DNA of 64,000 nt from Bolinopsis microptera (taxonomy: Eukaryota > Ctenophora > Tentaculata > Lobata > Bolinopsidae): contig NC_087077.1 of NCBI RefSeq assembly GCF_026151205.1, forward strand, positions 4,156,001 to 4,220,000, in the 5' to 3' direction. The stretch's first letter is position 1, and every line of letters begins with the position of its first letter. This document shows, piece by piece, positions 11,985-55,345 of the stretch. A program made the position numbers and the translations under genes. Below the pieces are notes generated by a model, which did not search any database, had not been told where the DNA came from, and saw only the letters and a program-made list of their open reading frames with translations.

Positions 11985-14900
11985 ATGGTGAAGGGTAAAA
12001 ATAAATCCAAGTCAAAGTCAGGTCTGATGGTGCAGAAGAATGAACTAGGAGATGGGGGGTTTCTGGGGGTGCCGAGCAGAGCTCAGTAAGTACCACGTCC
12101 GTTCAATAACCACTAACCAGGTTAGGTTATGTTACTCAATTAAAGTGTGATTGTAGTGATTATAGTGATCATCTGAGTTATTTATTGAGTTACGAGTGCA
12201 CTTCCAGATCAAGAAGGGATCACTTTACTGCCTACGTCAATATTATTTCAAGCGTTCAATACACATTCCAGCTTTCGGTATATAGTTACACTACTATTTT
12301 GAACAGGTTGCCTTTAGTTTACTCTTTGTGTTATTTTAACGGGAAATGTCACGACCTCGAGGGAACTCAATAGATTCCAGCACTTCTGCTCTCCAGTAAT
12401 GAGTTATTGATTTTAACCAATATGGCATTTTTAGATGTATGAGCACTTATCATACATTTTAGCGATGCAAACATCTTTTTGAAGGTACAGTGTTTTGTCT
12501 TGCTCCAGTTTAACTCAATGACCCCTGTCATATAGTTTACCTGTAACAGTTCCACCAGGTCGGAAGTGAGTAATGTGGCTGGGACCACTATTGACGAGAA
12601 CCTGCTGGTTGAGTTTCTGGAGGATGACGGTATTGATGTCTCCACTGCTAAGTTCCTTCATGTGAGATTATGTTTTCAGTAAACCTACATTGTGTTGACC
12701 AATTTTATTGGTTTAAGAAACTACTTCTTTTGTTAGTTCTTCCCTCACTTTTCATAAGAGCGAAGTCTTGGTTTAAGGTAAATTTGACTGTTTATTTACT
12801 CATCTGCAATATAGGGTGATTCCTGTATAACCGTCCGAATACCCTCAGGGGCTGAACAAGAACGGACTGCGACCTCTACATGACCCCCGTTTTAAGGACA
12901 CTATTGATAAGATAAAGGCTCTGGGTCAGGACCCTGACAGCATACCTGAGGTCCTCAGCATGGAGGACTTTAAGAAGTGAGTTCCATCGAGAAACACTCG
13001 TGAAATTAAAATTTTGAAGGAAATGCTGATCAATAAATCGTAACAGTTAAAGTCATTTTAAAACAAAACTTCGCCCTTTTAAGCTTCGGTCCATTTAATC
13101 CCTAGCTCGATTAAAAAGATAAAAATATGGATAATCTCCCAACGAATATAAACGTTTTTTAAGAAAGATAAGTTTCTTTTTTGCAGGTGTCTATCATCGA
13201 ATATGGTGTTCATAACACAAGCTCTCTGTGGAAATTTGATCATCCCAAAATGGGGCGAGTTCTCAACCATAATCAAGGAGATTTTCGAAGAGTGCAGACC
13301 CTTAAAACAGGGCAAGGTTAAAACTGAGTTATTTTTTGGTTTCTCCCATTTCTGTTAGATAGCTTTAACTTATATCAAGCTTCTCAACTCATTTTCTCAT
13401 TTTACCACTAAAAACGTACAGGTGGCGGATCTCACACCGCAAATGGCTAAGGTTGACCCAGAAAAGTACGCGATATCAATTTGTACGACTGACGGACAAA
13501 GGCTGTCTTTCGGTGATTCCAAGTGTCCATTTCCTATACAGGACCTGAACCGAGTTCTGCTGTATGCTCTGACATGCACTGAGAAATCTGTGGACTATGT
13601 CCACGAGTAAGTTTCTGTGCACTTGCAGTACTATGAAGTTAATTAAATCAATACTATAATTTGACCTCACCAATCTTGAAAATGACGTTAACTTGACGGT
13701 ATATTTGCTCTACAGATACATAGGAAAGGAGCCGAGTGGCTCAGAAGGAGAGGCCCTGAACCTAAAGAACAAGAAACCCCACAACCCACTCCTTCTCACT
13801 GGTGGTCTGACACTAGCCTCCCTCTTGAAACCCAGTCTCTGCTTCTCTGAGAGATTTGAATACTTCTACAAGAAATGTGTACAGTAAGTCATTTGTCACA
13901 TTCCTTAAAATTCCTTGCGATTGAAACTTGTCGGATAACAATGAATAATCTCTAAGTAGTTCCTGGTACACCACGAAACTAAGATTTGGGTAGGATATAT
14001 GAGCTAGGAGAATCATTCCTTTAAAATTCCTTGCGATTTCATAGTCTGTACTCTGTAAACACAGACTATGAAAATTAGATCTTCGTACAAACTACATTCC
14101 ATATACCAGGAAATCTTTGTCGCATACATTTGAAAATGGGTACGTGACGAGACAGAATTATCGCAGTTTGGTGATTCGATAAACTATAGTTGTAATTATT
14201 CTACAGGTTCTGTGGGAAGGATACTGTCGGGTTCAACAATTCCCTAGCTCTCTCTCTGAAGGACCACTCTAACCGTCTGTACGCTATCGGGCACTACCTC
14301 CGAGAGAACGGGTGTTTCAACAAAGAGGCTAGCGTGAGTTTTATGGAAACACATAGATATCATGTTTAATTCTATAGATGTGGATTCTCGTGGGGAGGTG
14401 AGGTACATTTGTTTACTTTAATAGTAAGTACCCGCTCAGCAGAGGAGAGAGGTGATGCACATTTGTTTATTTTTAAGGATAAGAACCCGCTCAGCGACAG
14501 CAGAGGAAAGATGTGATGCATATTTTGTATTATGGAACGCTTGTATCGCTTGTAACTCCTTCTTGTTACCCCCTTTGAACTTTGAAGGTCACGAATTATT
14601 TTCTGAAAGAAAGCTTAAAAATAACCGAGAAATCGACTTAGTTAAAAATAACCGAGAAATCGACAGTTGTTGTTTACTCATTTTGATGACTGTTCTTGAC
14701 TTAAAATTGCACGAAAGAAAAGTCGATTTAACTAGGTTTCAGAACCTATAATCATTTCCCTATACCTCAAAATTGATATTTTATAGTTAGTACGAGCAAC
14801 AAGCAACATACATTTTGATCCTTATTCAGTTCCTAATATAGTTGATTTAGTCACTGGGTGAATTATAGTACAGCTTGGGAATCATGTAACCGAGCTAGAA

Positions 14901-17900
14901 GTACAAAAAGGGATAATATTAATTAAAAGGCGTTTGATTATACTAATATAATATGTTAAGTAAATATTAGTACAGTATTATTCATCAAATATAAATAATT
15001 TCAATATGCTATCGGATATTTAGCAATGGGGAATCGGTCAAGAGGTCGATCACATGACACAAGGGCGAAAGTTTCCTAAAACGATCACATGACCTAAATG
15101 TTGGACTAGTAATACTACAAAACCTGCAACATCACACAACTTACTTATAGCTATAGTTGTATAAATTATGAGTAAAGTTAGTTTTGAAGAGTGAGTTATG
15201 TTTTTTAATCAATGATTAATAATAGTCGTCACATAATGATGATAAAATTGATAAAACTTATTATACATTCAAATATCTGAAAATAGTTCACTCCTCGATC
15301 ATCACGTTCCTCAACATGTCAAGGAGCAGCTGAGAGTCACTAAATTAGGTGCGGATGCGGTGTGCGGGGCATCCCTATCCTAGATATTGTCCGAGGATGT
15401 TTTTCCGAAAGTCCAATTTTTGCATAATTTAATTTGTTAATCCGCGTAGTTTTGTTTTGTTGCAGTATTTTCCATCCGCTCTACATCGCTTCAATTTCTA
15501 CCGCTCTATCGCATGTAACTTAGAGTTTCCTTAAGATTCCTTCGAGTTGTAAAGACTAAATCTGGCGATTTACTCACTCTCGGTCCTTTTCGACCCGTTA
15601 CTCAGGCCCTTTAGGTGCCCCTAGAGTACATGGCCTCTTTCTTGAGACCGTTGACCTGCTCCATTTGGACTCTGATGAGTCAAGTGACTGGCAGTAACAC
15701 GAGAAACCCAGGCCACTTTCGTCCGGACATGGAAACCCAGGATTCCGACGTGACAGGCCCCTTTTTGAAACCCTTATAGGCCCACACAGCCCTATTATCA
15801 GGGAACCGTGACCAGGCCCATTTTTAGGGATCCCGCTTTTGAAACCCACGCGCGTTAGGCGTGAACTCACCGCGCGTATGTACTTGGTTATACCTGCAGC
15901 CCTTTTGTATCCCTGGTTAGGATTATTCGTTGTTCTCGGTTTTCATGTATAGTGGGCTTAATTGGATTGGTCAATTAGGTTTCAGTAAGAACTGAGAACA
16001 ATGCAAAAAGGTTCACATTTATGCGATCTCAGCAATCGGATAACTGATAGATCTCTAGCAATAGATGGCTTTCATCAAAATTAACTTGTCTCCTAGTCCA
16101 AGAACTACTACCTTTAGCACTTTTTTACTACCAACACTTGAATCTCGTATTCAGGTTCAACTGGTTGAGTAATGCTTACAATCAGTCAAACATACACCAT
16201 TATAAATGATAAAGCGGCGGTTAGTACGCTACAAATCTCCAAAGTCTCTCAGGTAAAGGAAATGATACTAAGCTACTCTCCAATTCCTAAAATTATAAAA
16301 AACTGCTCTTCGTCAAACATTTCGCAGCATTAAATTGTGGTAAAAAAATTTTCTGAGCACCAATACCGTACTAAATTTGACTTTATTTCATGGAACTTCG
16401 TTAACCAATATTTTTCGATTTTAATTAACACGCACTAATAAATGTGCTTGTGTAATTAAATAAGAGACATTGGTCTACTGAATCAGCCCGATACTTAACT
16501 AATATTGACTCTGGGCTTCCGTGGCAGCGACGGGCCATCCGTTTTCCAATTGAGGCAGCATCCGTAAAAAAATTATCTTGAGACATTACCTCGTCACCGT
16601 AGAGTGGACATATGTTTTCAAGTAATGACTTTTGGAACAAGGTCCAGATAGTTTTAGATCATACCACTTGCTGCACACGTCGGAAGGCCTTTGCGTAGCT
16701 GAGTTTCTTCACAGGTCGGCAGAGGTGGAGGTCAGCTTGGCGACAAACGAGGGTTGCAGTCGGTTCTGCAGCGCTTCAATTGTCCTAAACCGTCTCTAAA
16801 ATAACAGCATGTGGGGGACCGTTCATAGAGTCATGAGAGCAGATGTCCTGGAAACGAGTTTCCGAAGAGAACTTATAGGTCGTCCTGGTGATTAGTACTC
16901 AATCCACAGCACTTTATTGGTATGCCAATGCCGGTTCAACATGATCCCGCTCTAGGTGCTCCGCATTTATGTGTCACTACGGCATGACATTTTACGATAA
17001 ATGTCTTAGGGTGCTTCCTCTAAGCGAATTAGGCTGAAAATTTTACTACGGAGGAAATGGCTCGTCATTCGGGACTTTTTGCTGATCATGTCGAAGATCG
17101 GTAGGTTTCGGCTTGGTCCCAAGGACGAAGAACTATCTGTCAGGACAACTCCCAAAGTTGTTGTCCGGTCATGTTGAACGTGGAGTCGCTGTAGGTATTC
17201 CACGGGACTAGGGCCGCCCGTTTTTTTTTAAAACCTATGGCCTCGTCGAAGGACTCCAATGTTAATCATACATCTGCGGGTGGACAATCTGCCAAGGGTC
17301 CAGAAACTTTAGGTTTCTTTGTAGGGACCGTTACGGCCAGGTTGCATTCGTTCCAGAAAACTAGCGACCGGGGTTAGACGAACGTACGGTCAGGCGCTTG
17401 CGAAAAACTCTGTGAACTTGTTTTATTAATCACCGACTCCTCGCCAGATGGGATGCTCGGTAGTTGCCAGGTTCGATTTTATCGGTTTTCATTCTCATGG
17501 GTTTTTATTCTCTTGATGCATCCTGGATATGGTAGAGGTTGTACGTTTATGTGTATTAGGGTTGTACAGTAAAAAAATGGACCAATATTGAAACAGTCTG
17601 TATTGTTATAGCGATTTAATAGATAATAACTTGATACCGACATAAACTTGAACTATTAATCTCCATAGCAATATGAACTTCAGCTTTTGCTGTCATAATT
17701 ACACGTTATGTCTTCGTCTGCTTAGATTCCATTTAAAGGATTAACAGTTGACCTCAGCATTTGGTTTAACCTTACACAATCTGGTAAACGTCCGTGTCAA
17801 GTGAGCTTGACGTAGGTTCCCTGCCTGTGGTTGAAGGTACTCAGTTTATAATATGGAGTAAAAATCAATCACAATCTATCCAACATAAATTGGCTTCTAT

Positions 17901-20900
17901 TTTCCCAAAGATCTTGAAAATGGATTTCACTCGTGCAGTAATAACATATAATGTTAACAATAGCCGTAACTACAACGTGTACTCCCAACTCCAACATCAA
18001 AGGTAAAGATACATCTCACTATAGTCATGAAAACTGTCCCATCCCCTATAATCCCACTAAAATACCACTCGACCTCACGTGTTCTAAGTCGCAAAACACA
18101 TCACTCCGCACTCCACTAACTATTATCAAACTTTTCGGTGGATTGGTATAATTTATAATTGTAAGTTGAGATAACAAAAATAGTATCATAAATCTATCTT
18201 ACTTTTCATAAACTTCTTAAAAATATACTAGCATCGTTAAAACAATTTTATGACAAAAGTTTAATAAAGCAATCGCTGGATTAAAATCAAAATGTCTGGA
18301 TACAATATATGTCACAATAAAAGTAGACTGTTTTCTTAACTTAGTGCAATATTAATGCGAGAACAGTCACAAATGAGTTAATAACTCAATTCTCGGGATC
18401 TTAAGCTATATCCCAACGGGCGTAGACAGAAGGAGTTACAAGTTCACGTTCATTTCCAAGTTGATCGCAGCATTCCTGTAAGAAGTGAATTTAGATTGAA
18501 GTAAACTTTAACTGCCAGTCACACCCTCACATCGTTACTATCAATTAAGGTTTCCTAGCAAATGAATCTTTGGACATTTGGATTCGTGATTATTTCAGAT
18601 ACATGCAAGCAAACTTAACTTACCATTGAACTGACTCGAGAGCAGATATGGACTTTTGTCCACTCAGTTCTTAGACATCAGTGATGCGCTGGGTGATGGC
18701 GCAGCTTGGGGATCTGTCCGATGTCATGAGGGAGGGTCCCCGAGCAGTTCCCGAATTGTTCCTGATGAATGTGTGGGTGTGTGAACGTTACACGGAGTAT
18801 CATGTCGGAAGACAGTTTCAATACGGTTATACGATGTCCCTGAAAGATCGTTAGATTTTTATGACGACTATCAAGGCGTGGCCCTCTGTTCGTTGTTCCA
18901 TAGGTTGCTCTATCAACTTCACCCTTGAGTTTGGTTATGTCATGCCGAGTCGAACGTGTCATCGAGCGCTAATGTGGATCCTCAATTTAAATGTGTCACT
19001 GGAATTGATAGGACAAAACTCTATTCTTCGCAACATGTTCCTGTGGTTGTGTTCACCCATACAGATCTAGAAACAAAAGTGGCCTGGAAAAGATTATACT
19101 ACAGGTTTGGCGTTTTCTCAGTTTCGAAACGTTTATCCTGATAAGTGGTTGAAGTATACAGAGATGTCAATGTCAGTTATTGTATACTTTCAGAATTCTA
19201 TATAACCAAATATTTGAGACTGAAATGCGTTGCGCGAGAAATGTGCCTGTATATAAGCTGCGGTTACATGTCTGGAACTGTGGATATCCAATAAGTACCA
19301 ATCACGAGATTAAACGCGACACACCGTATTTCATTCTTTGTAGGTACAGCAAAAGATGCTATGCGGCTGATGGTTCATGGATTTATATGGGCTATAACTA
19401 TTCTTAGGACAACAGAGGTCCATGAATCTGGGTTTGTCTGCTGTCAGGAACCACACGTATACGCTAGAGGAGTGATTCATCCTGAAACGAGGACAGGCTG
19501 GACCTATGACTGAGTGTGGGAGTGCAAATGAATCACCAGTTAACATTTTGGTAGTTCAAAAACTACTGCCTGCTTTAATCTTATTATAACAGTGACACTA
19601 CTCACAACAAACCAAGGAGCTCGATGAAGTTCCTGACGACAATGTCAGATATACCCATTTTTTTGTGTGTGTCCAATGTCTGCGGAAGGAGTCAGAAGGG
19701 TTCTTTGAAATCTGTTGAGATTCTTGAGGACTGAAAAATAAATGTAGTTGTTACTTTTATGAGATTAATTACTTTAACATAATAACAAAGATTGCCGCCC
19801 GACCAGTTTTTTTATCGTTTATGCGGATGTGATTTACATTTTTACTATTTACTTATAGAATTTCAATGTTTAATCATATCAAGCTCTTATCATTCCTGTG
19901 CAGATTTAATTTGTAAAATTATACATTCTTATTTTCTGGGCCGCCAACCTGCTTGCAAATTTATTCTGTTTCAAATTGGCCTCGGTGAACTTAATTGTAT
20001 CTGTTAATTCAGAATTATTAGTAAAGGTGATACTAATCGTAAGTATTTTCAAGTCCAAAACTCGCGGCCCAAGTCCAAATTGGCGTATTGTATAGTAGTT
20101 AAATAATTAGAGTAACATACGAATGCTTTCTATACTTTTAAAACATCGCGCCGGTATTGTCTCAGATACACAGGTTTGACTTACGTTCTAGTTGATCAAT
20201 GTCAATCCTTCGCGCGTGCAGCACGTGTTGCATTGGTATACGGTGCGAAGACATATTATCCGCCACCACCGAGTCTCCGCTAAATCGTTTTTCTGCAAAT
20301 CCCACATTTTGACTTTCACTATTGCTTATTAAAAGATGTAAAAAAAAAACGAGAACCAATTATTTCGAAACCTTTTATTTTCGTCTCGTAATGGTAGTGA
20401 AATTATGAAACTTCAATTGATACGCACGCATTCGCAACTATTTAAATTGCTTTTTGTCTGAAGTAAGATCTTGATTTTGCTTTATACTATCCGCGGAACA
20501 GCAGGCGTGTCAACGCGACGCATTTTATAATACATACATTATGTTGGTGAACAGTTGAATGCGGCTGGGAAACTCAAATTTTATTTTAAGCTATAGATGC
20601 GCGGATTATTATCATTTCTGATATCATTCGAGTTGTTCTGTTTCAAAAATAATTACTATTCCATGAATAGTTTAAGTCCCGTTGTTGATAATTGTAGGTA
20701 CTAAGCTACGCAGACAATTTCCCGAGACAACATTTTTCTTCCATTGTTCGTCCCAAAAATTTTGGGAGGACAAAAAGGATTTCCGTGCAACGAATGAACA
20801 AGAGAATGTAACACAAGCCGTAAAGTAACCTATCGAGTTATCTTAACTAACTGGCAAAACGGCGAAACTGGATACACTTCGTCACGGTGATATATGCGCC

Positions 20901-23005
20901 CGAGGAACCCGCCGTCTTCTAAGCTCCGCAACAAACCACGAGAGAAGCATACCGCAAAATCATGTCAATCTAATGCCACTAATCTACGTCCACCAGTTTT
21001 TTCAACGGCTTGGCCGAGTATGTAGTCTGGATTGTGAATGTGGTTAAACAGTAATATGAAGGTTAGTTCATTATTTATAATATAATCTGTTATTAAGCAA
21101 TAAACTAAATTTTAAATATTCACAAGCAGTTTATATATTTAAAACACTTCTTTATTGGCAAAAGGTTTTTAAAAATAGACAGTTGCGAATTTAACATCAG
21201 GTTGTTACAGCATTGATTATCTTGGGGTGATTGCAATCTGAATGAGGGTGCTCACAATAACTAATGGGACTGATTAATGTGCTTATAGCTAGTTAAATTG
21301 ATTTCTCATGCAATATTAATGCAAGAACAGTCATCAAAATGAGTTTATGACAAGGTCGATTTCTCGGTTATTTTTAAGCTTTCTTTCAGAAAATTATTCG
21401 GGACCTTCAAAGGGGGTAACAAGAAGGAGTTACAAGCGTTACAAGCGTTCCATAATACAAAATGTGCATCACCTCTTTCCTCTGCCGAGCAGGTACTTAC
21501 TATTAAAGTAAACAAATGTGCCTCACCTCCCCACGAGGATCCACATCTTTACTTATAGCATAGTTGGCGTGATTATGTCTTTCCGCTAGACTACACCAGC
21601 TAAACTAACAAACCATTACAGGCTGACTCGTTAGAGCAGACAATGGAGCTGTTTATCCACTTCAGTGCTATAGACATGTCATGTGATGCTGCTTCTGTGA
21701 TGGCTGCCACCCTGGCATCTGGGGGGCTCTGTCCTATGACTGGGGAGAAGGTGGTGTACCCTGAAGCTGTGAGAAATTGTTTGAGCATGATGAACTGTTG
21801 TGGTGTTAACGATTACAGCGGAGAGTTCATGTTCGAGGTAAGACAGTTTTCCCCACAAGTACAATATACGTATGTTATCCCTATCTCATCTTTAGATAAG
21901 TTTATGACACTATCAAGGTGCACTGTCCGTCAGTATTCAGTAGTATTCCATAGTCTGCTCTTAGATTTATCTAAAACTTCATCCCTAGGTCGGACTACCA
22001 GCCAAGTCGAACGTGTCAGGAGCGCTAATTGTAGTGATCCCCAATGTGCTAGGAATGTGTATCTACTCGCCCAGACTTGATAGGAGCAGAAACTCCGTGA
22101 GGGGGGTTCAGTTCTGCAAGCTGTTCACTGATAGGTTCGTCTTCCACCAGTTCGACCCCACTGACAGATCCAGAAACAAAGTGGACCCTAGGAGAAAGGA
22201 TTTCCATGAAACCAAGGTTTGTGCGTTTTTCTCAGTGTTTTAAACATTTACTGATATAAGTTGGATAATAATTTGTTATATAGTAGTGTTGAAAGTATTA
22301 GTTTTAATACTTTCAACACTACTATATAACAAATAATTTGAGCCTGAAGATGGCGTTGACGCCGAAAATTTGCCCTTACTCCTAACTTCCTTGTTTCACT
22401 TGTCCTTGTCTCGTCCAACCGGATATTATCCAACTATCAGTATTTCAATCACGAGACTAATAAACAGCGAACTACTCCGTTATTTTAAACATTTCTTATG
22501 AATAAGATAGTACAGCAAAAGAACTCTAATGCGCCTGTATGTTCTTGTTTTCATTGGCTATAAACTATTTCATTTAGGACCAACAGAGTCTCATTCTGCT
22601 GTTTGCTGCTTACCAAGGAACCATGACCACACTATACCGCTACCTTAAAGAAGGAGTTAACTTCTCTTATCCTGACTACGATGGAAGGACTGCTCTTCAC
22701 CTGGCAGTTTGCGGAGGCTAGTAAAATAATCACTCCGTTAAACAATTATTCTGTTGTATTTCCAAAACAGTACTGCACTGCTATTCTGTTCATGTAAAAC
22801 AGTGACACTACTCAACAAACATTAACCTACAGGACAGCTCGATGTGGTCAAGTTCCTGATCGACAAATGTCACGTGGATATAAACCCAGTTGATAGATGG
22901 GAGAACACTCCTATAGACGATGCCTACAAGTACGGTCACCAGCAGATAGTTGTCTTTCTGCAGCGAAAGGGAGCTCAGAAGGGGGTTACAATCATGGGAA
23001 ACTGA
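11985..23005 (+). CDS. Glutaminase-family protein with ankyrin repeats, active site lost
   Basis: Eleven exons join in phase: 11985-12085, 12559-12661, 12849-12976, 13187-13316, 13422-13606, 13716-13883, 14207-14333, 21622-21837, 21989-22216, 22578-22716 and 22833-23005, giving 565 aa. The order matches animal GLS/GLS2: an N-terminal helical region ([11 protein letters not shown]), the beta-lactamase-like glutaminase domain (about 155-450, with [27 protein letters not shown] and PNVLGM), then ankyrin repeats (about 485-560, [10 protein letters not shown]). In GLS, a Ser-Lys dyad plus Tyr, Asn and Glu side chains convert glutamine to glutamate in mitochondria. Here every one is replaced: SxxK is D195-x-x-R198, and the residues matching human Y249, N335, E381, N388, Y414 and Y466 are L158, L243, L289, L296, F325 and N377. 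The fold is intact but activity is not expected. The start is lysine-rich and is not an obvious mitochondrial presequence. Confidence 0.9.
14384..14740 (+). repeat. Inverted repeat partner of 21310-21556
   Basis: Segments such as GTGGGGAGGTGAGGTACATT and TTATGGAACGCTTGTA recur as reverse complement at 21310-21556, so copies face each other across about 6.6 kb of the same intron. This copy has an internal duplication of the CCGCTCAGCAGAGGA part. A decayed third copy is at 18340-18480. Confidence 0.8.
14741..18659. other. Intron interior without a recognisable gene
   Basis: Mostly AT-rich, but 15570-15880 and 16490-17530 are clearly richer in GC and have coding-like texture without any intact frame. 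I could not assign them to a family. They may be decayed transposon or older duplicated exon DNA. Confidence 0.5.
18660..19740 (+). pseudogene. Decayed tandem copy of glutaminase-like exons 8-11
   Basis: Aligned by eye with 21620-23040. The exon 8 relic lies at about 18680-18810 (GATGGCGCAGCTTGGGGATC against GATGGCTGCCACCCTGGCATC-like sequence). The exon 9 relic is at about 18950-19105, including GAGTCGAACGTGTCATCGAG. The exon 10 relic is near 19407 (AGGACAACAGAG), and the exon 11 relic at 19595-19735, where even the ACTGAAAAATAAA 3' end remains. Frames are destroyed by indels and stops. The copy sits inside the intron between exons 7 and 8 of the parent gene, in the same orientation. Confidence 0.8.
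19741..20665 (+). repeat. Duplicated intergenic DNA and relic of the actin promoter/5'UTR
   Basis: This continues the pseudogene copy. TTTGTAAAATTATACATTCT matches the region after the real gene (about 23255). AATTATTTCG...TTTTATTTTCG matches 23645-23680. CAACGCGACGCATTTTATAA matches 24650-24672. ATATCATTCGAGTTGTTCTG...AATAATTACTATT matches the 60 bases just before the actin ATG. The actin coding start itself is gone (CCATGAATAG). Confidence 0.75.
20666..21309. other. Intron segment, nothing recognised
   Basis: No exon or repeat that I can support; AT-rich with a GC-richer patch at 20820-21010. Confidence 0.5.
21310..21556 (-). repeat. Inverted repeat partner of 14384-14740
   Basis: Reverse-complement match to 14384-14740 over most of its length. 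It ends about 65 bp before exon 8, so the pair brackets nearly the whole 7.3-kb intron. Confidence 0.8.
22271..22334. repeat. 30-bp perfect hairpin with GTTT loop
   Basis: Arms 22271-22300 and 22305-22334 are exact reverse complements (inner part GTTGAAAGTATTA). It is in the intron between exons 9 and 10 and will form a strong stem in the pre-mRNA. Confidence 0.9.
22717..22832 (+). other. GC-AG intron (non-canonical donor)
   Basis: Exon 10 must end GGA G to keep the ankyrin frame ([10 protein letters not shown] across the junction), and the next bases are GCTAGT. The acceptor CCTACAG is normal. The nearby GT (TA|GTAAAA) would create an in-frame stop. GC-AG introns are a known minor class. 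Confidence 0.65.
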
Positions 23006-23027: not shown

Positions 23028-23033
23028 AATAAA
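23028..23033 (+). terminator. Polyadenylation signal AATAAA of the glutaminase-like gene
   Basis: The AATAAA hexamer lies 23 bases after the stop codon; a mutated equivalent is kept in the pseudogene copy near 19735. Confidence 0.7.
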
Positions 23034-23784
23034 ATTGTTAAGTTTGACTGACATTTATCATGAGACTTAACACTTAAGCTTTTAAGACATAATAAATTCA
23101 TAAAGATTCAGCACGCCATCCGTGAGCCTAGTATGGGGTAATTATTTAATTGATATTAATCGGTGTGTCTTTTACATTCTACTGACTTGACGTTGGATAG
23201 ATATTTTCAATTGTTTTATCATATGCATACTGTTTTATACAATCCGTGAGATTTAATTTGTAAAATTTAATCACAACTCTTTATTTTGTGATGCAGATTT
23301 AATATTGGCAGAATCCTGGAGTTTAACGTAAACGGGTGATACTCGTAATATATTTGTTCCAAAGTCCAAAGACTGTCGACGGTTCCAATACCAAAGTCCA
23401 ACTCGGCGTGCATTTTGGTCATAGGTAGGTTATAAACCTACAATCCTAGAGTCGAACATCGAATGTCTTCTCTATACTTTTAAAATCACGAAAAATCGTA
23501 CCGGTATTGTCCTCGATTAGCATTTTGCAGGTTGTGACTTTGGACTTGTGTTCTAGAATCTAGCAGATCCCACAGTTTTGTCACTTTGCGGTTAAAGTAG
23601 AATTAGACTGTAAAACTAAACCGAAACGGACGCAGAGCTTTGGCAATTATTTCGCAAAATCCTTTTAATTTTCGTACATCGTACTCGTAGTGCGAATCTT
23701 GTAAAAATCTAGTCAAATGATTCGCAGCAATTTTTTCCAACTAGTTTAAATTGTATTTTTGGTCTGAAAGTGAAAAGAGTCGTT

Positions 23785-24602
23785 ATATTATATATATCGA
23801 AGACTAGAAAGCATGGAAACTTCCGGATCGGACGCCCTTGTTCGACATGCTTTCACAGAACAAAAGAAAATGGGCCTATCATGGTACTCCGGCATTACGT
23901 CGATGAATCAATTTCTGGCAGAAACGAACGAAAGGCAACTATCACCCATTCAGAAACGAGATGTTCTCCGTTCTTGCTTTAGAACGCAATGGGATGAAGA
24001 GAGACAGCTCAACAGAAAACTTGGATTTTACAATTCGATTAAATCAAGTTTTGGTTGTGAAAAATACCTCTCTCTCTATCTTCCATATAACCAGTCAAAA
24101 AGACTAGCCCAAATAAGGACTAGCTCTCACCGCCTAAATATTGAAACGGGACGCCATGGACAAGTCAGAAGAAACAACATCCTAAATCGTATCTGTCCTA
24201 CATGTTCCACTAAGGACAAGAACACTCTGGAGTACATGGCAGAGTTACCCTTCTTTGATCCCATAATTGAAGATGAGGTTCATGTGCTTAGAACCTGCCC
24301 CCTCTACCAAGACAACAGGGACCGCCTTAGCCCTGAAGCTAAAACCAACCTCTTCGAGGGAATGGATCTCATATTCACTCAACCAAAGCTTTTAAAAGAG
24401 ATTGCTAAATTCTTAGTTAATATAGATGCACTTCGTTTCCCGAGAGACTTAGCTTAAATTATGATATTTGTTTCTTCACGGTTTTCGTATCTGATTTCTA
24501 GGTTATGATTTCATTCTTATTTCTTGTATTGTCAAGCCAGGAGTGTTAGGGCTTCTCTAGACCAATTAACGTTTAATCCGTTTAATCCGTTTAATCCGTT
24601 TA
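23785..24602 (+). mobile_element. 3' fragment of a non-LTR retrotransposon (LINE)
   Basis: An open frame ending in TAA at 24455-24457 encodes the C-terminal part of a LINE ORF2. It has the SSHRLNIETGR block, a CPTC...H...CP zinc-knuckle-like motif and DEVHVLRTCPLY, followed by a short 3' UTR. The element ends in tandem GTTTAATCC units (24567-24602), a 3' tail of the sort seen in CR1-like LINEs. The reverse transcriptase is absent, so it is 5'-truncated. The duplicated region at 20.4-20.6 kb lacks it, which serves as an empty site. Confidence 0.75.
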
Positions 24603-24800: not shown

Positions 24801-27229
<2,429 letters not shown>

Positions 27230-32392: not shown

Positions 32393-35300
32393 CTAATCTT
32401 CAGACCGTCTCAACGTTACCGGCTGAGTATTATGCCTCTCGGCATATAACCTAAGTTTGTACTCCTTAGCTATCGCGGGTGGCATATTAGATTTTGTAAC
32501 AGGGACAGTAATGGTCTTCTTTAATTTGGCTGGGGTGCTGCAGGGGTTTGGTTTGGGAGTTTCTGTTTGTGCCTTTGGCGCTAGTATGGGTTTTGGAATC
32601 AGTCGGGGGTCACAACTTTTTGGTACTTCCAGTGGGCTGGGGGTCTGAAGAGTATCGAAGAACTTATCATGAGAAGCCGAGAATCCTCTACCAGTTTTAT
32701 CCTGGATTACCATGGATCTGTTTCTCGTGATAACATTTCCAACACTGTTCAGAAGGGTGTATGAGCGAAATTTGCGGTCAACAGACACAACTTTGGCTTG
32801 GCGCCAAGTCTTGTCAGATTTCCCGTCTTTGTAAATCACTATATCACCCGGGTTACACATATCAAAAGATTTAGTAGCATTTCTATTATAATATTGAGCA
32901 CTTGCTGCTTGTCTATCGAGTAATAATTTACGGTTTTTGCAGTCTCTCTCAGTTACCAATGAGCTTTGTAAATATGGCAAATTTGTCTTAACATCTCTTC
33001 CCATTAATAGATTATGGGGGCTTCCCAATTGAGGGCTCAATGGAGTCGCTCTATAGTCTAGTAAACACATATTAACATTATCTAAATTACCTTTACATCG
33101 TGTAATAATGTTCTTAACGTGCCCAATAGCTCGTTCAATCTGCCCATTAGATTGACTGTATCGTGCGGAACTAAAACACTTATCGATATCATATTTCTCA
33201 CAAAACTTCCTCATTACCACCGACGCGTATATTGGTTCTCTGTCTGAAAAAGCTATATCAGGAATACCAAAACGGGCAAATATAGACTTAGAATGTGAAA
33301 TAAGTTGGTCAGACGTCGGATTTCTAGATAACTCGCTAACTTCTATCCATTTGGTAAAGTAATCTATGACAACTTGATATTTCCGACCCATAACAGTAAC
33401 AATATCTGCTCCTACTTTCTCAAATGGTCTCAATGGAACACTATGCGATTTGAGTTCAACTTTCATCGGAAGCTTCCGTGTACTTAGACACTCAGTACAT
33501 TTGTCGACCATATTGTCGATATCTGAATTAATATTTCTCCAATATACTCCCTTTCTAGCTAAAGCTTTACATCTAACACGACCCTGGTGTGTGTCATGCA
33601 ACTTTCTCAGAATATTATTTTGCAAAACCTTTGGAATTACAATTCTATCATCAAACAGAACTAAGTCGTCAAAAACTGACAGTTGGTCTTTCATTGACCA
33701 ATACGGAGTAACATTTGGATCACATTGCCGTGTGTCATCTGGCCACCCATTGGTGATATATTCAGTGATTTTAGCTAAACAAGGATCTCTAGCCGTTTCT
33801 ATTTTAAGTTTATGTTTCATTTGCATCGAACTCTTTACAGTCTCTACAATCATGTGTACATTAAGATCACATTCTCGCTCTAAAACAGTGTCGTGAGTGG
33901 AAATTGGAACTGTGGCACGACTAAGGGTGTCTGGTATGACGTGATCTTTACCTGGTTTGTAGGATAGCTTGTAGTCATACTTCTGTAGTCTGAGCAGGAG
34001 GCGCTGGCATCTGGCTGGGTTTGCATGAATTGGTTTCATGGATATCGGAGTCAGAGGCTTGTGGTCTGTATATACCTGCACGTGTTTCCCATACACGTAT
34101 TGGTTGAACCTCTCTAAGCCAAATACAACTGATAGTAGCTCCTTTTCAATATTTGCATACCGCTTCTCTGTTTCAGTCAGTGATCTTGAAGCATATGCTA
34201 CTGGTTTTCCTTGCTGTAAGAGACAGGCTCCCAAACCAGCTTGGCATGCATCTGTGTGTATCTCAACGGGTTTAGTGACATCATAATGTGCCAGAGCTGT
34301 ATCATCTGTAAGGTCCTTCTTGAGATCGTCAAATGCCTTCTGTTGCTCGAAATTCCAGCAGAATACTTTGTCTTTGTGGAGCATGGTCCTCAAGTGGTGT
34401 GTCTTTTCACTGAGGTTTGGAATATATCGGGCCAGATACGTTACCATGCCCAGGAATCTCTGGATTCCTTTTTTGTCTGCTGGTGCAGGCATCTGAGTTA
34501 TCGCGACAATCTTCTCTGGGTCGGGTTTGAGTCCTTCCGGTGTGATAATGTGTCCGATATACTTCACCTCGTCACACAGGAATTTGCACTTCTTTTTGTT
34601 CAACCTTATTCCTACTTGGCTGCATCGTTCTAACACAGCTCCAAGCCTGGCCGTGTGCTCTTCGAAGGTGTTAGAGAATACGAGGATATCATCAAATATT
34701 ATCAACACGCCTGGGAAACCTTCGAATTTTTCTGTCATTCTCTTCTGGAATATTTCATTTGCGCTGTTCAGTCCGAAAGGAAGACGAAGGTATCGGTACC
34801 TTCCAAATGGAGTGTTGAACGTGGTCAGCTTGCTGGATTTCTCTTCGAGGGGGAGCTGCCAATATCCACTTTTGAGGTCTAGTTTGCTGAAACATTTTGC
34901 ATTTGTTATCTTTGATAACGTTTCTTCTGGGGTAGGCAAATGGTGGTGTTCTCTCATGACCCATCTGTTCAGATCCGTGGGGTCAAGACATATTCTTAGC
35001 TTCTCTGGTTGTTTTACAACCACCATCGAGTTCACCCAATCTGTGGGTTCGTCAACTTTCGTTATCACTCCAAGCTTCAGCATCCTCTCCAGTTCCTCTT
35101 GGACTTCGGTGTGGATCGAGAAGGCTAGCTTTCTTGCCGCATGTTGAACTGGTTGTGCACCGTCTTTCAACTTGATCTTCGATTTTACGTTTGACAGGCA
35201 GCCAATCGTGTCTTCTTTGAAAACATCTTCGTGATCTTTCATCAGGTCTCGTATCTTATCTTCGTGTTGGGACTTTGTCTTGGGTGTTGCTTCTTTCTTC

Positions 35301-36715
35301 TCCCTTAGACTTTGTCTACCAGAGAGAATATCAACCTGAAATTGATGTGAAGGTCTGTGATGAGGTGTTGTGGGGTTAGTGTGAACTGGATTAGACGAGC
35401 TGGTTGTGGTCGGTGGTACACTCGCAAACGGGTTAATGAGATTGAGTCTGATCAATGATTCTAAACCTAGAATAGATCTGGCTAGAAATGGTACAACATG
35501 AAATTCAGCTCTGTGCTTATTACCGTTTATCTCACAATTAAGCAATATAGTACCTAAAAAGGTTATTCCAGTTCCTCCATAAGCTTTTAATCTAATACTA
35601 GTATCTCTAATTTTGGGGTTTGATACAATCGATTTTAACACTACACTAGAGATAACATTGCATTCAGCACCAGTATCAATTTTGCAAAGAGTTTTTCTAC
35701 CATTTAAAAGAATTTGCTCAGTCCATTCCCTACATTTGATTTCTTCAACTGCTCGTTGACTTACCGAGATAGCACCAATGTTGAGTTCCGAGGTGTAGAT
35801 GCTGTCATCTTTGTCGTCTTCGTTCATCACTGCATCTAGATCTTCTTCGGAAGGGTCGCAAAAATCTTGGTGGATCATGTCGATCTTTCTTTTAGATCTG
35901 CAAACCTTGGCGAAATGGTTCTTCATTCCACATTTTGAACATGTCCGTCGATACGCTGGGCAGTGCTCAGGGTTTCCAAACTGGTGTTGGTTCCCACAAT
36001 AACCACATTTTCCTTGTGAGTTTTGCGGTTTGTATCTCTTGTTAACTTGAGGTTTTGATGGTTCGTTTTGAGGTCTGGGTCTTTTCCTCCCGATGGCATT
36101 TATGCTGGCGTTAGTTGTAGCTAGCAGTGTTTGAATCCTCTTGTCTGCCATCTCCTGGGTTTTAACAATTTTGACTGCAGTTTCCAGTGTGAGGTTGTGT
36201 TCTCTAAGAAGCCTTGTTTTCGTGGCTCGGTTAGACACTCCTACTACGATCCTGTCTCTGATGAGGCTCTCTGATATGTCCTCTGCTTCAAGTTTGATCT
36301 TTTTCTTCTCTCCACCTTCTAGATCGATTTCTATTTCTCTTGGCGGGATCGTGTAGTTGCATTTCTTAGCCTGCATTCGAAGCCTCATTTGAAATGCTTC
36401 AATGGTTTCCTCTTCTTCCTGGTCCATTGTGTTAAAAATGTGTCTTTCTACCGTCTCGTTTGCAGTATGTCTAAATTTATTGATGATCTCGACCTTGATC
36501 AACTTGTATGAAGCTTTCGCTTCATTGCTTAGGCTTGATACAAATTTTTTCACGGCTCCCCCACACAGCTGCATCAAAATGGCTTTCTTTCGCCTGTCGT
36601 CTATTTCCCCAAAATTTGCAAGCATTGAGTCTTCAAATTCTTCTACCCACTGGTCGAAAGGCTGGTCATTTTCATACTGGGTACATTCGAAAAATCCTCT
36701 AACTTCTGACACCAT
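32393..36715 (-). CDS. Gag-Pol polyprotein of Ty3/gypsy Mag-like retrotransposon
   Basis: A single 1440-codon frame without stops or frameshift. In order it has a gag capsid region, two zinc knuckles (the second is CSKCGMKNHFAKVC), an aspartic protease (CKIDTGAECNVIS), reverse transcriptase (LPFGLNSANEIFQ; the metal-binding motif reads IFDD instead of YxDD), RNase H (IHTDACQAGLGA), an HHCC integrase domain (LHDTHQG...CTEC) and the integrase core with Asp in GADIV, Asp in FSDRE and Glu in SNGQIERA. Fused gag-pol, short LTRs and overlap with the primer site fit the Mag lineage. The start ATG uses the last LTR base (36715), so the primer-binding site starting TGGTGTCAGAAGT lies inside the first codons. 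The tail after integrase is Pro/Lys/Thr-rich. Confidence 0.95.
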   Translation of the reverse strand: MVSEVRGFFECTQYENDQPFDQWVEEFEDSMLANFGEIDDRRKKAILMQLCGGAVKKFVSSLSNEAKASYKLIKVEIINKFRHTANETVERHIFNTMDQEEEETIEAFQMRLRMQAKKCNYTIPPREIEIDLEGGEKKKIKLEAEDISESLIRDRIVVGVSNRATKTRLLREHNLTLETAVKIVKTQEMADKRIQTLLATTNASINAIGRKRPRPQNEPSKPQVNKRYKPQNSQGKCGYCGNQHQFGNPEHCPAYRRTCSKCGMKNHFAKVCRSKRKIDMIHQDFCDPSEEDLDAVMNEDDKDDSIYTSELNIGAISVSQRAVEEIKCREWTEQILLNGRKTLCKIDTGAECNVISSVVLKSIVSNPKIRDTSIRLKAYGGTGITFLGTILLNCEINGNKHRAEFHVVPFLARSILGLESLIRLNLINPFASVPPTTTSSSNPVHTNPTTPHHRPSHQFQVDILSGRQSLREKKEATPKTKSQHEDKIRDLMKDHEDVFKEDTIGCLSNVKSKIKLKDGAQPVQHAARKLAFSIHTEVQEELERMLKLGVITKVDEPTDWVNSMVVVKQPEKLRICLDPTDLNRWVMREHHHLPTPEETLSKITNAKCFSKLDLKSGYWQLPLEEKSSKLTTFNTPFGRYRYLRLPFGLNSANEIFQKRMTEKFEGFPGVLIIFDDILVFSNTFEEHTARLGAVLERCSQVGIRLNKKKCKFLCDEVKYIGHIITPEGLKPDPEKIVAITQMPAPADKKGIQRFLGMVTYLARYIPNLSEKTHHLRTMLHKDKVFCWNFEQQKAFDDLKKDLTDDTALAHYDVTKPVEIHTDACQAGLGACLLQQGKPVAYASRSLTETEKRYANIEKELLSVVFGLERFNQYVYGKHVQVYTDHKPLTPISMKPIHANPARCQRLLLRLQKYDYKLSYKPGKDHVIPDTLSRATVPISTHDTVLERECDLNVHMIVETVKSSMQMKHKLKIETARDPCLAKITEYITNGWPDDTRQCDPNVTPYWSMKDQLSVFDDLVLFDDRIVIPKVLQNNILRKLHDTHQGRVRCKALARKGVYWRNINSDIDNMVDKCTECLSTRKLPMKVELKSHSVPLRPFEKVGADIVTVMGRKYQVVIDYFTKWIEVSELSRNPTSDQLISHSKSIFARFGIPDIAFSDREPIYASVVMRKFCEKYDIDKCFSSARYSQSNGQIERAIGHVKNIITRCKGNLDNVNMCLLDYRATPLSPQLGSPHNLLMGRDVKTNLPYLQSSLVTERDCKNRKLLLDRQAASAQYYNRNATKSFDMCNPGDIVIYKDGKSDKTWRQAKVVSVDRKFRSYTLLNSVGNVITRNRSMVIQDKTGRGFSASHDKFFDTLQTPSPLEVPKSCDPRLIPKPILAPKAQTETPKPNPCSTPAKLKKTITVPVTKSNMPPAIAKEYKLRLYAERHNTQPVTLRRSED
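36697..36714 (-). other. Primer-binding site of the gypsy element
   Basis: The minus strand begins TGGTGTCAGAAGTTAGAG immediately after the 5' LTR. TGG complements the CCA end of tRNA. Which tRNA primes is not determined here. Confidence 0.6.
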
Positions 36716-36851
36716 GTTATGTTATGTGCTTGCGTTATTGTTGGACAAGTCATACACTAGTTTCCCATCAAAACCTGAACAATATATAATTAACCATTTA
36801 TTCAAATACAATATATATCAACAATATATATCAAATATACAATACATAACA
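36715..36851 (-). repeat. 5' LTR of the gypsy element
   Basis: 137 bp, identical to 31903-32039. It should hold the promoter for the minus-strand transcript. Confidence 0.95.
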
Positions 36852-51500: not shown

Positions 51501-54500
51501 TGCAACCACAGTTAGTTTTTTATATATAACTAATGCAAGCCTCTCCACACTCTGTTCAAGCAAGTCACGTGATAGTCGAGTGTAGAGTGATTAATCATCA
51601 TCCTCTCTCTTCGTCGAATCTTCGATAGTTATTGGTTATGAAGCCTCGAGGTAACACCGAAACAAGAGCCTTGACTCAAGAAATTAGCTAGCTGTTGCCT
51701 GTTGGGCTTTTGTAAAGTCTGAGCAAATATTAACACAGATATATGAAGACTTCGACATGAGTAACTAGACACTGCCGTCTTCTCACATCACCAAACTGGA
51801 TAGATTCGACTCCATATCATATCACAGGAGACTATAAAGATAACAGCAATATAGGCCTGATCAGGACCGAACAGTTTCGAACCGGAACAGGAATCTCATG
51901 TTTCTTATTAGCGAACACTCCTGTATCTGAACTAATACCCCTGTTTCTACACCAAATACCGGTGATCTCATATCTAATCAGCCGGTTACTGATCTTGTCA
52001 ACCTAATCTAACAAGCCTAGTTGTTCTGGAGCGAACAGGAACTCATGCCATAACGTCAGAGAAACCTGACGATCTAATCCTGAAGTTAAAGTTCTGTATC
52101 AAGATCCAACGTCTGAGTGGGTTGTAACCAATAATAACATGACAAGAATTGTAGTAAAAAAGTATAAAGCTTTAATAATAGATGGTGAAAATAACAATTC
52201 ATCGTTGTAATAGTTTCTTTTTGTTCAACTCTTGTTAAAGATGATAACGTCTGCAAAGGATCATGATGAAAGTGTTAACAACAAATACAATGTCGCGGTT
52301 TCTATCTCCCAGTTTGATGATTACAACTCAGACGTGTCGAGGATGCAAATTGCTCGGATGCTCCTCTCCTCTTCACCTCCACCTAAACACCTCAGAACTC
52401 AGGCTAAGAGATTCACTTGCAGTTACCAGGGATGCAATAAGTCGTTCCACAAACCAGATCACCTAAGAACCCACATTAGGACCCACACAGGCGAGAGACC
52501 TTTCCAATGTTCTGTTTGTAACAAAGGCTTCGGAGACTTGGCTAACCTGAAGAGACATAATAGGATTCACACAGGCTTCAAACCGTTCAAGTGTTCCTTT
52601 GGTGGGTGCGACAAGTCGTTTAGCGTGTCAAGTAACTTGAAGCAGCATTTCAGGACTCACACAGGGGAGAAGCCGTTTAAATGCGAGTACTGTGACAAAA
52701 GTTTCAGTCATATCTCGTCCAAGAAGAAACACATGGCTATCCACTTAGATGGTTCTTCTACTAAAGCAGTCAACACTAATTCCTCTTGTTTCAAACAGAC
52801 CTCTTACATCGACCCTTCATTTCTGGAATCTTCCCCTACCCTTAAAAGCGAAACCTTTTCCCCCGAGATACAACAGAGGGAATTATCTTGGCTCCCAACA
52901 AATCCCTCTGCTTGCCTATCTCCTGCTGGAATTACCCTCTATAACACCACCCCTTCTTATTTTCATCTTGAAGTGACAAACTTCACGCCGAACAAGACAG
53001 GAGATCCCTCCCCGGTCTACCAGTTGTGCGATCATAAAGACCACGTGTCCTCACCATCTTCAGGATCCAACCTCACATCTGCTGATCAGACCTGGCACCC
53101 ACTACACGGTTATATCCCTCCTCTCTCACTTTCAGAAGTCATAGATCTCATTGAGGGACTCCCGCCTAGCCCTGGCCCAGATGAACAGATGAGGAAGGGG
53201 GCTATTGATAATATAATGTTCGAGAAGCTCAAACGAGAGCTGTTGATAATATTAGCTGCTGCTTGAAACAATTGTCTTTATTTTCTCTGGGGTTTGCCTG
53301 ATCGAGGCTACTGCAGTACAAATTATGAAAATTCTTTCAGTTTCAAGTATAACAATATTTTTTTTTTTTTTTTTTTAAGAGAGGCTGGGCCAAGATAGCC
53401 CACGAGAGGATAGCATTGAGATGCTCTGCCTACCTCTGGGGTGTGGCAACCTTGGGGAAGGTTGCCGGTGAAATCAGAGTGATTGGTGGAGGATGGTGTA
53501 AGATGATATATGAGTCAAAATGATACGCTTAAATGCCAGCTGGGTTTGGAAAAGTAAAACGAGACGAGACAGCATATGAGCTAATACTTTAAGTCACCCC
53601 GGTCTGATCCAGCTCTTCCGGCACAATTAAGCGTTTGGTGCGGTTTGCGAAATTGACAATTGTGGTGATGTGTTGGTTGTCGAATATGTCATTGACAGAG
53701 AGGTAGTAGTCCTGGAAATATTGACCTCTAATTTGGGCAATAGCTGGACACTGTCCAAGGAAGTGTGAGACAGTTTCCTCTCCGTCGCCGCACATAGGAC
53801 AAGCACTGGTGTTTGATTTGCAAATGGTGTGAAGGTGTTTGTTTAAGCCGCAGTGACCCGTGATGAGGTGAACTGCAGTTCTGTAATCTTGTCTGTTTTT
53901 GCTGAGTGTAGTGTTGAGGTTTTTGATGATTTTGGCATGCTTGTGGCCGAGTGTCAGTTTGGTGTGTCTGGGACCGTCAGTTAACCAAGTTTCCTGATTC
54001 AGTCTGTTGACTTTGTTGTCGATTTGACGCTTGATGTAGGATTGTGGAATTGGACACTTCAAAGTGGATTCACTGGTTGTACCAAGCTTGGCCAGATCAT
54101 CTGCTTTTTCGTTCCCCCACAATCCGATGTGTGCTGCAATCCATCGTATCTCTAGCGTGTTGTTGGATCCGAGTGCATTAAGAGAGTCGTAACAGTCGAA
54201 GTCTCTTGTAGTTCAAGTATAACAATATAAGAACTAAAGAAGTGTTTAATAATGTCGCAATTATTTTCTATATTATACACGAAATTATAAATCTCAGATT
54301 TCTACTTGTCCCATTTACAATTACATTCTACGTGTTTAATCGTTTTGGACTGGGACTTCCTAGTTTAATTAATATTAACTCAAAGAACACAAATTCTCAG
54401 AGTAAATCTGGGCACTAGGGAAATAAGGGGTACTTGATTTTCCTAATTCTGAAACTCCGCAGGTCCAACAGAAAACGAAAGTCCTACGAGTCCTGGTAGT

Positions 54501-54584: not shown

Positions 54585-55345
54585 GGGAACTTAGAGCGTA
54601 CGAATTAAAACACACGAGGTTCAATTTAACATCAGTCACCCATCAGGCATCATTTGCCTCATGTTTAAGATGTAGCGTAGTTGCTTTAATTTGTTGAAAT
54701 GACTTTCTGGAACAAAATGTTAAATGTCTGACTAACTGATCGCCATATTTTTCTTTTAGAAAAAACAAAAAGGAAACGAAAGGCCTCAATCTGTAGATCT
54801 GAATAGTGGTGAACCTCAACCATATTTGTTTAGACAGGTGACAGTGACTATAGACACAGTCTTAATTTGTTAATTAAATGTAAAAAAGTTGTTTTACTAT
54901 AAGTATAAGCTAAAAGTTATTTGTTTCTTATTCTCAGTCCCACATTAACCGTATCATTCTGTGACCATAGGCCTCTTGGCTATTTCCAGATTATTTAATT
55001 GAATACTCACAAATAGGGCTGACATTGTAATTATGTGAACGAGACACATCAGTCTCACTACAATTAACTTTAGAGATTAATTGACCATTGATTCTGAATC
55101 TCAATTATGACACGTGATGTAATTTTTCCTTCATGTACAGTCAATAAGATGAGAAATAGGCCACGTGACATTGATAAACCATTGATACAAATGGGCTTTG
55201 TCTTCTGATCAATGTTCTTACGCCTCACGACAAATGCAATCTTCCTTTTCATTAGACCGGACAATAGAAAAGCTTCTTTCAGCCAGGTCTCGTCCTGTGG
55301 TTTATACCACGCCCTAACAATACCGTCATTTTACTTTTAATAGTC

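Follow-up and report, generated by a model that had tools for sequence, protein, structure and literature searches.

Can a gene that keeps the frame of a glutaminase and has lost the catalytic side chains still be functional, and which role could it then have? This question is raised by one gene in the window, the whole stretch of 64,000 nucleotides from the ctenophore Bolinopsis microptera that we analysed. For this gene, the initial annotation had proposed selection for a non-enzymatic role as scaffold, glutamine sensor or filament partner.

Structure and domains of the window gene

We refined the spliced model with the window protein as query and obtained 11 exons, which run from the ATG at 11985 to 23002, are followed by the stop codon TGA at 23003-23005 and encode 565 residues. 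There was no stop or frameshift, which confirms the intact frame claimed by the initial annotation. With the active-type paralogue C11_291k as query, our own spliced aligner recovered 10 of these exons, some edges being off by up to about 25 nt; this alignment is independent of the initial gene model. Pfam searches placed EF-hand_14 at residues 49-131, Glutaminase (PF04960) at residues 153-441 (272.8 bits against a cut-off of 27, profile positions 1-286 of 286) and Ank_2 at residues 469-560, in agreement with the claim that fold and ankyrin repeats are kept. The features are given below, with the two nearest paralogues (C5_16.99M and C5_17.01M) for comparison and human GLS residue numbers in brackets.

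11985..12085, plus strand: exon 1, with ATG and lysine-rich N-terminus; matching exon in C5_16.99M and C5_17.01M; fastest exon (pN/pS 0.28-0.39)
12559..12661, plus strand: exon 2 (gene model)
12849..12976, plus strand: exon 3, EF-hand_14 region (gene model, Pfam)
13187..13316, plus strand: exon 4, end of EF-hand_14 and start of the glutaminase domain (gene model, Pfam)
13422..13606, plus strand: exon 5, lid loop and former SxxK; L158 (Y249), D195 (S286), R198 (K289)
13716..13883, plus strand: exon 6, activation loop; G227 (F318), L243 (N335)
14207..14333, plus strand: exon 7; L289 (E381), L296 (N388)
14334..21621, plus strand: intron 7, 7288 nt long (nearest paralogues: 448 and 805 nt), enlarged by an insert that has inverted-repeat arms
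14373..14648, no strand: left inverted-repeat arm of the intron 7 insert; at least 42 matching pieces genome-wide (40 of 527 candidates scored)
21344..21551, no strand: right inverted-repeat arm of the intron 7 insert; three pieces, 91-96% complementary
21622..21837, plus strand: exon 8; F325 (Y414), N377 (Y466)
21989..22216, plus strand: exon 9, end of the glutaminase domain; V395 (V484)
22578..22716, plus strand: exon 10, ankyrin repeats (gene model, Pfam)
22717..22722, plus strand: non-canonical GC donor of intron 10 (GCTAGT); GTAAGT in C5_16.99M and C5_17.01M
22833..23005, plus strand: exon 11, which encodes the end of the ankyrin repeats and the C-terminus, with stop TGA at 23003-23005; pN/pS 0.14-0.16
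23028..23033, plus strand: AATAAA soon after the stop, a possible polyadenylation signal (read in the sequence)

The splice sites had also been described as kept. This holds for 9 of the 10 introns, which are GT-AG, and fails for intron 10, whose donor is GC (GAG/GCTAGT). If this donor is unused, residue 509 is the last one in frame; the window copy would then be shortened and lack the final ankyrin part. Exon 11, which lies 3' of the donor, is constrained nonetheless against both nearest paralogues. The insert in intron 7 is transposon-like, and among the matches listed, several matching arm pieces elsewhere lie in facing pairs about 0.8-17 kb apart.

Replacement of the active-site residues

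We aligned the window protein with human GLS, whose reference sequence was taken from the Protein Data Bank. The replacements are Y249 to L158, S286 to D195, K289 to R198, N335 to L243, E381 to L289, N388 to L296, Y414 to F325 and Y466 to N377, so that all six substrate residues (Y249, N335, E381, N388, Y414 and Y466) are lost, and the V484 equivalent is retained as V395. All nine positions given in the initial annotation were exact. The Ser-x-x-Lys pair of catalytic glutaminases is Asp/Arg in the window gene and in all four of its sister genes. Across 73 bacterial relatives, none of the eight positions varies where the contig includes it: Y249 is present in 71 of 73, S286 and K289 in 72 of 73 and the other five in all 73, the misses being two truncated matches; Y414 and Y466 are not independent here, because the patterns used to scan the bacterial loci included them.

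The initial annotation had also considered that the SxxK motif might lie elsewhere in a correct gene model. No second SxxK-bearing exon was found in the 64-kb window among the matches listed by the glutaminase family search or the protein search. By homology to the glutaminase fold and loss of the catalytic residues, the window gene is classified at the sequence level as a pseudoenzyme, and its product would have lost catalytic activity.

The glutaminase family in this genome

A search of the 264.65 Mb assembly with the Pfam glutaminase model gave 41 exon matches, corresponding to 16 genes including the window gene. When a sister protein of the window gene served as query, 81 matches were listed, and the additions match only the ankyrin end of the query. 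Both searches score the best candidates only, so that 16 genes is not proof of completeness.

The presence of a catalytic copy in the same genome had been left by the initial annotation as a point to check. We found all eight catalytic and substrate residues in 6 of the 16 genes (C11_10.07M, C11_5.2M, C11_286k, C11_291k, C3_16.75M and C5_7.85M), the last being counted with caution as its model crosses one frameshift. This one-base frameshift in C5_7.85M (L006) is either a real break or an assembly error. C6_12.0M differs from the full set solely by K289M. At least four of the eight residues are lost in nine genes (the dead genes below), and K289 is missing in 10 of 16; the C1_1.99M model is unreliable upstream of about human residue 272, and its Y249 was left out of these counts.

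All eight residues are replaced in five genes, namely the window gene, C5_16.99M, C5_17.01M, C5_16.24M and C5_16.20M. Their replacements are D286, R289, L249, L or M335, L381, L388, F or T414 and N466. For C5_16.24M, C5_16.20M and several other genes, the N-terminal end lies outside the resolved model.

Two further members of the family have features of their own. C6_12.0M (L003, C6:12007800-12010600) is an intronless glutaminase gene with an intact frame, and paired with C11_286k it gives an omega of 0.137. In C11_281k (L001), the frame ahead of the domain contains the tandem repeat STDSSRGSAPPHPQ; this gene keeps S286 and has Asp in place of K289.

Phylogenetic position

The tree contained 22 of the 73 bacterial loci, two human rows and the 16 genes of this genome. 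The 16 genes and the two human rows fall on one branch (100/100) against the 22 bacterial loci, the order within this branch not being resolved. This grouping with human GLS and GLS2, together with the EF-hand_14/glutaminase/ankyrin layout, assigns the window gene by sequence to the animal GLS type. The five D-x-x-R genes group together as a clade (100/99), and C5_2.87M joins them (100/99).

In the best tree, the nine dead genes also share a branch, but its support is weak (72/75) and long branches are involved. For these reasons we do not claim a single origin of the nine as shown. A single clade of all seven active or near-active ctenophore genes was neither shown nor rejected (p-AU 0.205).

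Purifying selection on the D-x-x-R clade

Pairwise codon models were fitted with our own GY94 code, and NG86 served as second estimate. Between the window gene and C5_16.99M, dN was 0.063 and dS 1.13, giving an omega of 0.056 over 564 codons, with 2dlnL of 438 against omega=1. The values against C5_17.01M were similar (dN 0.065, dS 1.07, omega 0.060), and NG86 gave 0.050 and 0.053 for the two pairs. The initial annotation had raised a dN/dS near 1 as evidence that would speak against its reading; the value found is about 0.05-0.06 for both nearest paralogues. Omega was 0.063 against C5_16.24M and 0.107 against C5_16.20M, with dS saturated in both pairs. The youngest pair, C5_16.99M and C5_17.01M, had a higher omega of 0.27 at dS 0.08, and the comparison pair C11_286k and C6_12.0M had the omega given above at dS 0.83.

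The constraint extends along the gene. Per-exon pN/pS ranged from 0.03 to 0.39 against both nearest paralogues, with exon 1 highest. When four parts of the gene were compared, pN was smallest in the glutaminase domain (0.031 and 0.035). When the introns of the window gene and C5_16.99M were compared (first 1,500 nt each), 9 of 10 local scores were no higher than expected from 100 shuffles; the score of intron 6 exceeded all 100 (21 against a maximum of 14). We also simulated neutral evolution of the window coding sequence at 1.1 changes per site. In 300 runs, the mean was 23.6 stops and the minimum 11, at 15% identity, against 0 stops and 88-89% identity observed with the nearest paralogues. 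The four relatives with the same changes have open frames in their modelled parts.

The replacement residues are held across differing codons. In the five genes, R289 is encoded by CGA, CGT, CGT, AGG and CGA, and L249 by CTC, CTA, CTA, TTG and CTA. Taken together, a putative pseudoenzyme lineage maintained by strong purifying selection after catalytic loss, and no relic, is well supported. The omega of about 0.05-0.06, with no other SxxK exon listed, likewise gives good support to the earlier proposal that the protein is selected for something other than hydrolysing glutamine. The dN/dS ratio reveals constraint without telling what the constraint serves.

Structural and assembly sites

We defined near-invariant sites as those conserved in at least 98% of 81 active-type rows (73 bacterial, six from this genome and two human). 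There are 47 such sites, and 27 are kept in all five D-x-x-R genes, 15 of the 27 being Gly or Pro. The other 20 are changed in at least one of the five genes. All eight catalytic sites are among them, as is the activation-loop residue F318, which has become Gly or Ala in the clade. V484 (kept in three of five), P251 (changed in one gene) and G509 (changed in all five) are also among the 20.

The excerpted text of PMC10912226 describes how K289 deprotonates S286 and how Y249 and F318 lock the substrate. At the dimer-dimer interface, R387 pairs with E397 and phosphate also contacts Y394 and K398; the filament contact residues are F355, F373, F378, D412, Q416, N375 and Q379 (PMC10912226, in excerpt). 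In the clade, R387 is kept in five of five genes and E397 in four, position 394 is Tyr in three and Phe in two, and the phosphate contact K398 is kept in none. For the filament, all five genes retain F355, F373 and N375, and all five carry F378 to Ala or Ser, D412E and Q416H; Q379L is found in the clade and likewise in the six full-residue ctenophore genes. The phosphate-site lysine K320 is changed in all five genes, and is Gln in the five canonical-clade genes.

The changes at F378, D412, Q416, K398 and K320 suggest that human-type assembly may be altered. From these residues, oligomerisation of the clade proteins looks possible, and human-type substrate-gated filament formation less so. The filament partner role put forward in the initial annotation is uncertain, as F355, F373 and N375 are retained and F378, D412 and Q416 altered.

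Two arguments on assembly were dropped. An activation-loop charge swap (R317E/E325K) had been considered as an argument for partner choice, and the five canonical-clade genes also have Lys325, with Gly317. K320A had been considered as a sign of constitutive assembly, and canonical-clade genes have Gln at K320.

Proposed role and alternative explanations

We lean towards the explanation that the window gene, as part of the five-gene D-x-x-R clade, encodes a catalytically dead yet functional GLS-family member that works via protein contacts, as scaffold or regulatory subunit. Its protein would fold as a glutaminase and could assemble into dimers or tetramers, given that R387, E397 and Tyr or Phe at 394 are mostly kept (K398 is lost). 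Its pocket, predicted to be lined by Leu, Met and Phe with an Asp/Arg pair, would allow neither hydrolysis nor binding of glutamine in the GLS manner. The protein may then form homo-oligomers that serve as an ankyrin scaffold, or may join catalytic paralogues in the same cell as their regulatory subunit. This scaffold or regulatory step is the weakest link of the explanation, and a scaffold or oligomer partner fits best among the roles in the initial annotation. As a special case, the protein might act only within mixed oligomers, as a dominant regulator lowering or tuning the catalytic paralogues. The tetramer residues R387, Y394 (or Phe) and E397 are mostly kept and genes with the full catalytic set are present in the genome, but the changed activation-loop and filament contacts may prevent mixing, and we consider this case unlikely.

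Other explanations place the function in the pocket or deny it altogether. Since the new pocket itself is conserved (D286, R289, L249, L381, L388 and N466 in five of five genes), new chemistry or a new ligand is conceivable: with Asp in place of the nucleophile, Arg in place of the base and hydrophobic walls, the remodelled site might bind or convert a different, less polar ligand, and the low pN of the glutaminase domain (0.031, 0.035) is in line with this. However, no recognised catalytic set remains, the substrate holders Y249, E381, N335 and N388 are now aliphatic, and F318 of the activation loop is Gly or Ala, which makes such a neo-enzyme quite unlikely in our estimate. The glutamine sensor of the initial annotation, which would bind glutamine or glutamate without turnover, agrees with the kept fold and ankyrin part and fits poorly with the pocket, where eight of nine compared residues are replaced (the V484 position excepted), the substrate holders mostly by Leu. 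Because these polar contacts (Y249, N335, E381 and N388) became aliphatic or hydrophobic, all being Leu or Met, a sensor is very unlikely. We find it hardly credible that the gene is a pseudogene decaying with its frame still unbroken, or a model artefact with the true SxxK exon elsewhere. The one GC donor and the enlargement of intron 7 by a transposon-like insert would suit decay or artefact, but omega is 0.056 at dS 1.13, the 565 codons are free of stops and frameshifts, the same changes occur in four relatives whose modelled parts have open frames, and no other glutaminase exon is among the window matches listed.

Intron positions and origin of the clade

Intron sites are expressed as human residue and phase, the human comparison covering site 550/551. 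The window gene, C5_16.99M and C5_17.01M have ten intron sites in common, and C5_2.87M shares 162.0, 202.2, 246.0, 476.0, 551.0 and 597.1 with these three. C1_1.99M has 476.0 in common with the three genes and 520.0 with C5_16.24M, C5_16.20M and C5_2.87M. Site 551.0, which is intron 9 of the window gene, corresponds to the human KGA/GAC split, where residue 550 is R and 551 is V. In the excerpt of PMC5399437, human KGA and GAC have exons 1-14 in common and diverge beyond residue 550. An intron of C11_281k near site 551 was left uncounted, as its position in the model misses the site by one codon.

In the canonical active clade, three genes are intronless (including the K289M gene), one has two introns and one has 12. 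The modelled frames of C11_291k, C11_286k, C6_12.0M and C1_7.75M have no introns, and none of the 12 introns of the active-type C11_10.07M lies at a site of the dead genes. None of the canonical-clade intron sites was found in the D-x-x-R clade or C5_2.87M. Comparing eight dead with four active intron-bearing genes, we found two exact site matches: 444.1 (dead C5_16.20M, active C3_16.75M from the other active lineage) and 354.2 (dead C1_1.99M, active C11_5.2M from the canonical clade).

Together with the intronless active genes, the common sites 551.0 and 444.1 suggest a dead lineage that kept old introns and a canonical active clade that for the most part went through retroposed copies. We offer it as a tentative and rather doubtful reading that an old intron-bearing ctenophore glutaminase lineage became the pseudoenzyme family while catalysis moved to largely retroposed copies. 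Under this reading, the weakly supported branch of dead genes comprises 9 of the 16 genes. Since C1_1.99M and C11_5.2M have site 354.2 in common, an old intron may have persisted in the canonical clade, which counts against a clean retroposition story unless the site was gained twice. If retroposition did occur in this way, most of the apparent enlargement of glutamate synthesis would be an increase in glutaminase-fold proteins without catalysis, which perhaps regulate a glutamate-based nervous system.

Relation to known systems

Compared with animal GLS (KGA) and GLS2, the window gene has the same EF-hand_14/glutaminase/ankyrin layout, an intron at the KGA/GAC split (550/551, intron 9) and mostly kept tetramer residues. 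It differs in that the eight catalytic and substrate residues, K320 and F318 have all been lost and the filament contacts F378, D412 and Q416 are changed.

An expansion of glutaminases in ctenophores has been described, with eight in Pleurobrachia and nine in Mnemiopsis; the excerpt of PMC4685580 calls them enzymes and relates their increase in number to glutamate signalling and the demand for energy. Our genes belong to the same family and phylum, but just 6 of the 16 here have the full catalytic set. We found no discussion of the active-site residues of ctenophore glutaminases in the excerpt of PMC4685580. Glutamate is a leading candidate ctenophore transmitter. If most expanded copies make no glutamate, this reading of the expansion needs revising, and the conserved glutaminase-fold proteins with their binding partners become a direct experimental target. 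The D-x-x-R clade would be a pseudoenzyme branch of the PF04960 family. We found no report of such a branch in the literature searched, a scope outside which most subscription journals lie.

Two other systems offer partial likenesses. The PLP synthase pseudoenzyme PDX1.2 of plants is also a dead paralogue kept beside active ones. It has another fold and reportedly has a place in the active complex; for the window protein, a partner complex is proposed. CPS1 also contains a glutamine-hydrolysing domain without activity. That glutaminase domain is an amidotransferase of another fold inside a larger enzyme, and is unrelated to PF04960.

Neighbouring and other loci

Several other reading frames were found in the window, all on the plus strand except one. 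About 1.8 kb downstream of the glutaminase-like gene, 24801-25346 (+) contains an Actin reading frame (228.6 bits, profile positions 2-162 of 410). The frame at 23774-24454 (+) has 227 residues and a cysteine-rich tail, is without a Pfam match and looks by eye like the end of a retrotransposon reverse transcriptase. At 32393-36721 (-), a 1442-residue open frame resembles, by eye, a retrotransposon gag-pol polyprotein. A C2H2 zinc-finger protein is encoded by a 350-residue frame at 52214-53263 (+). The 659-residue open frame at 55268-57244 (+) matches Pfam EFF-AFF, the cell-cell fusogen family, at 156.6 bits against a cut-off of 25, here in a ctenophore.

Outside the window, a jellyfish-photoprotein query listed at least 55 matches in the genome, many in tandem arrays. 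The translation of one copy hit berovin (4mn0) and mnemiopsin 1 (5vp3) with E about 1e-121, and no other protein at E up to 1e-20, as expected of a ctenophore. An ionotropic glutamate receptor, by contrast, told little about the animal, its best Protein Data Bank matches being of the kainate and AMPA types. One array at C5:17012730-17026401 holds at least 15 photoprotein matches and lies about 3 kb from the pseudoglutaminase gene C5_17.01M. A second photoprotein array is located on C13, with at least 11 matches listed.
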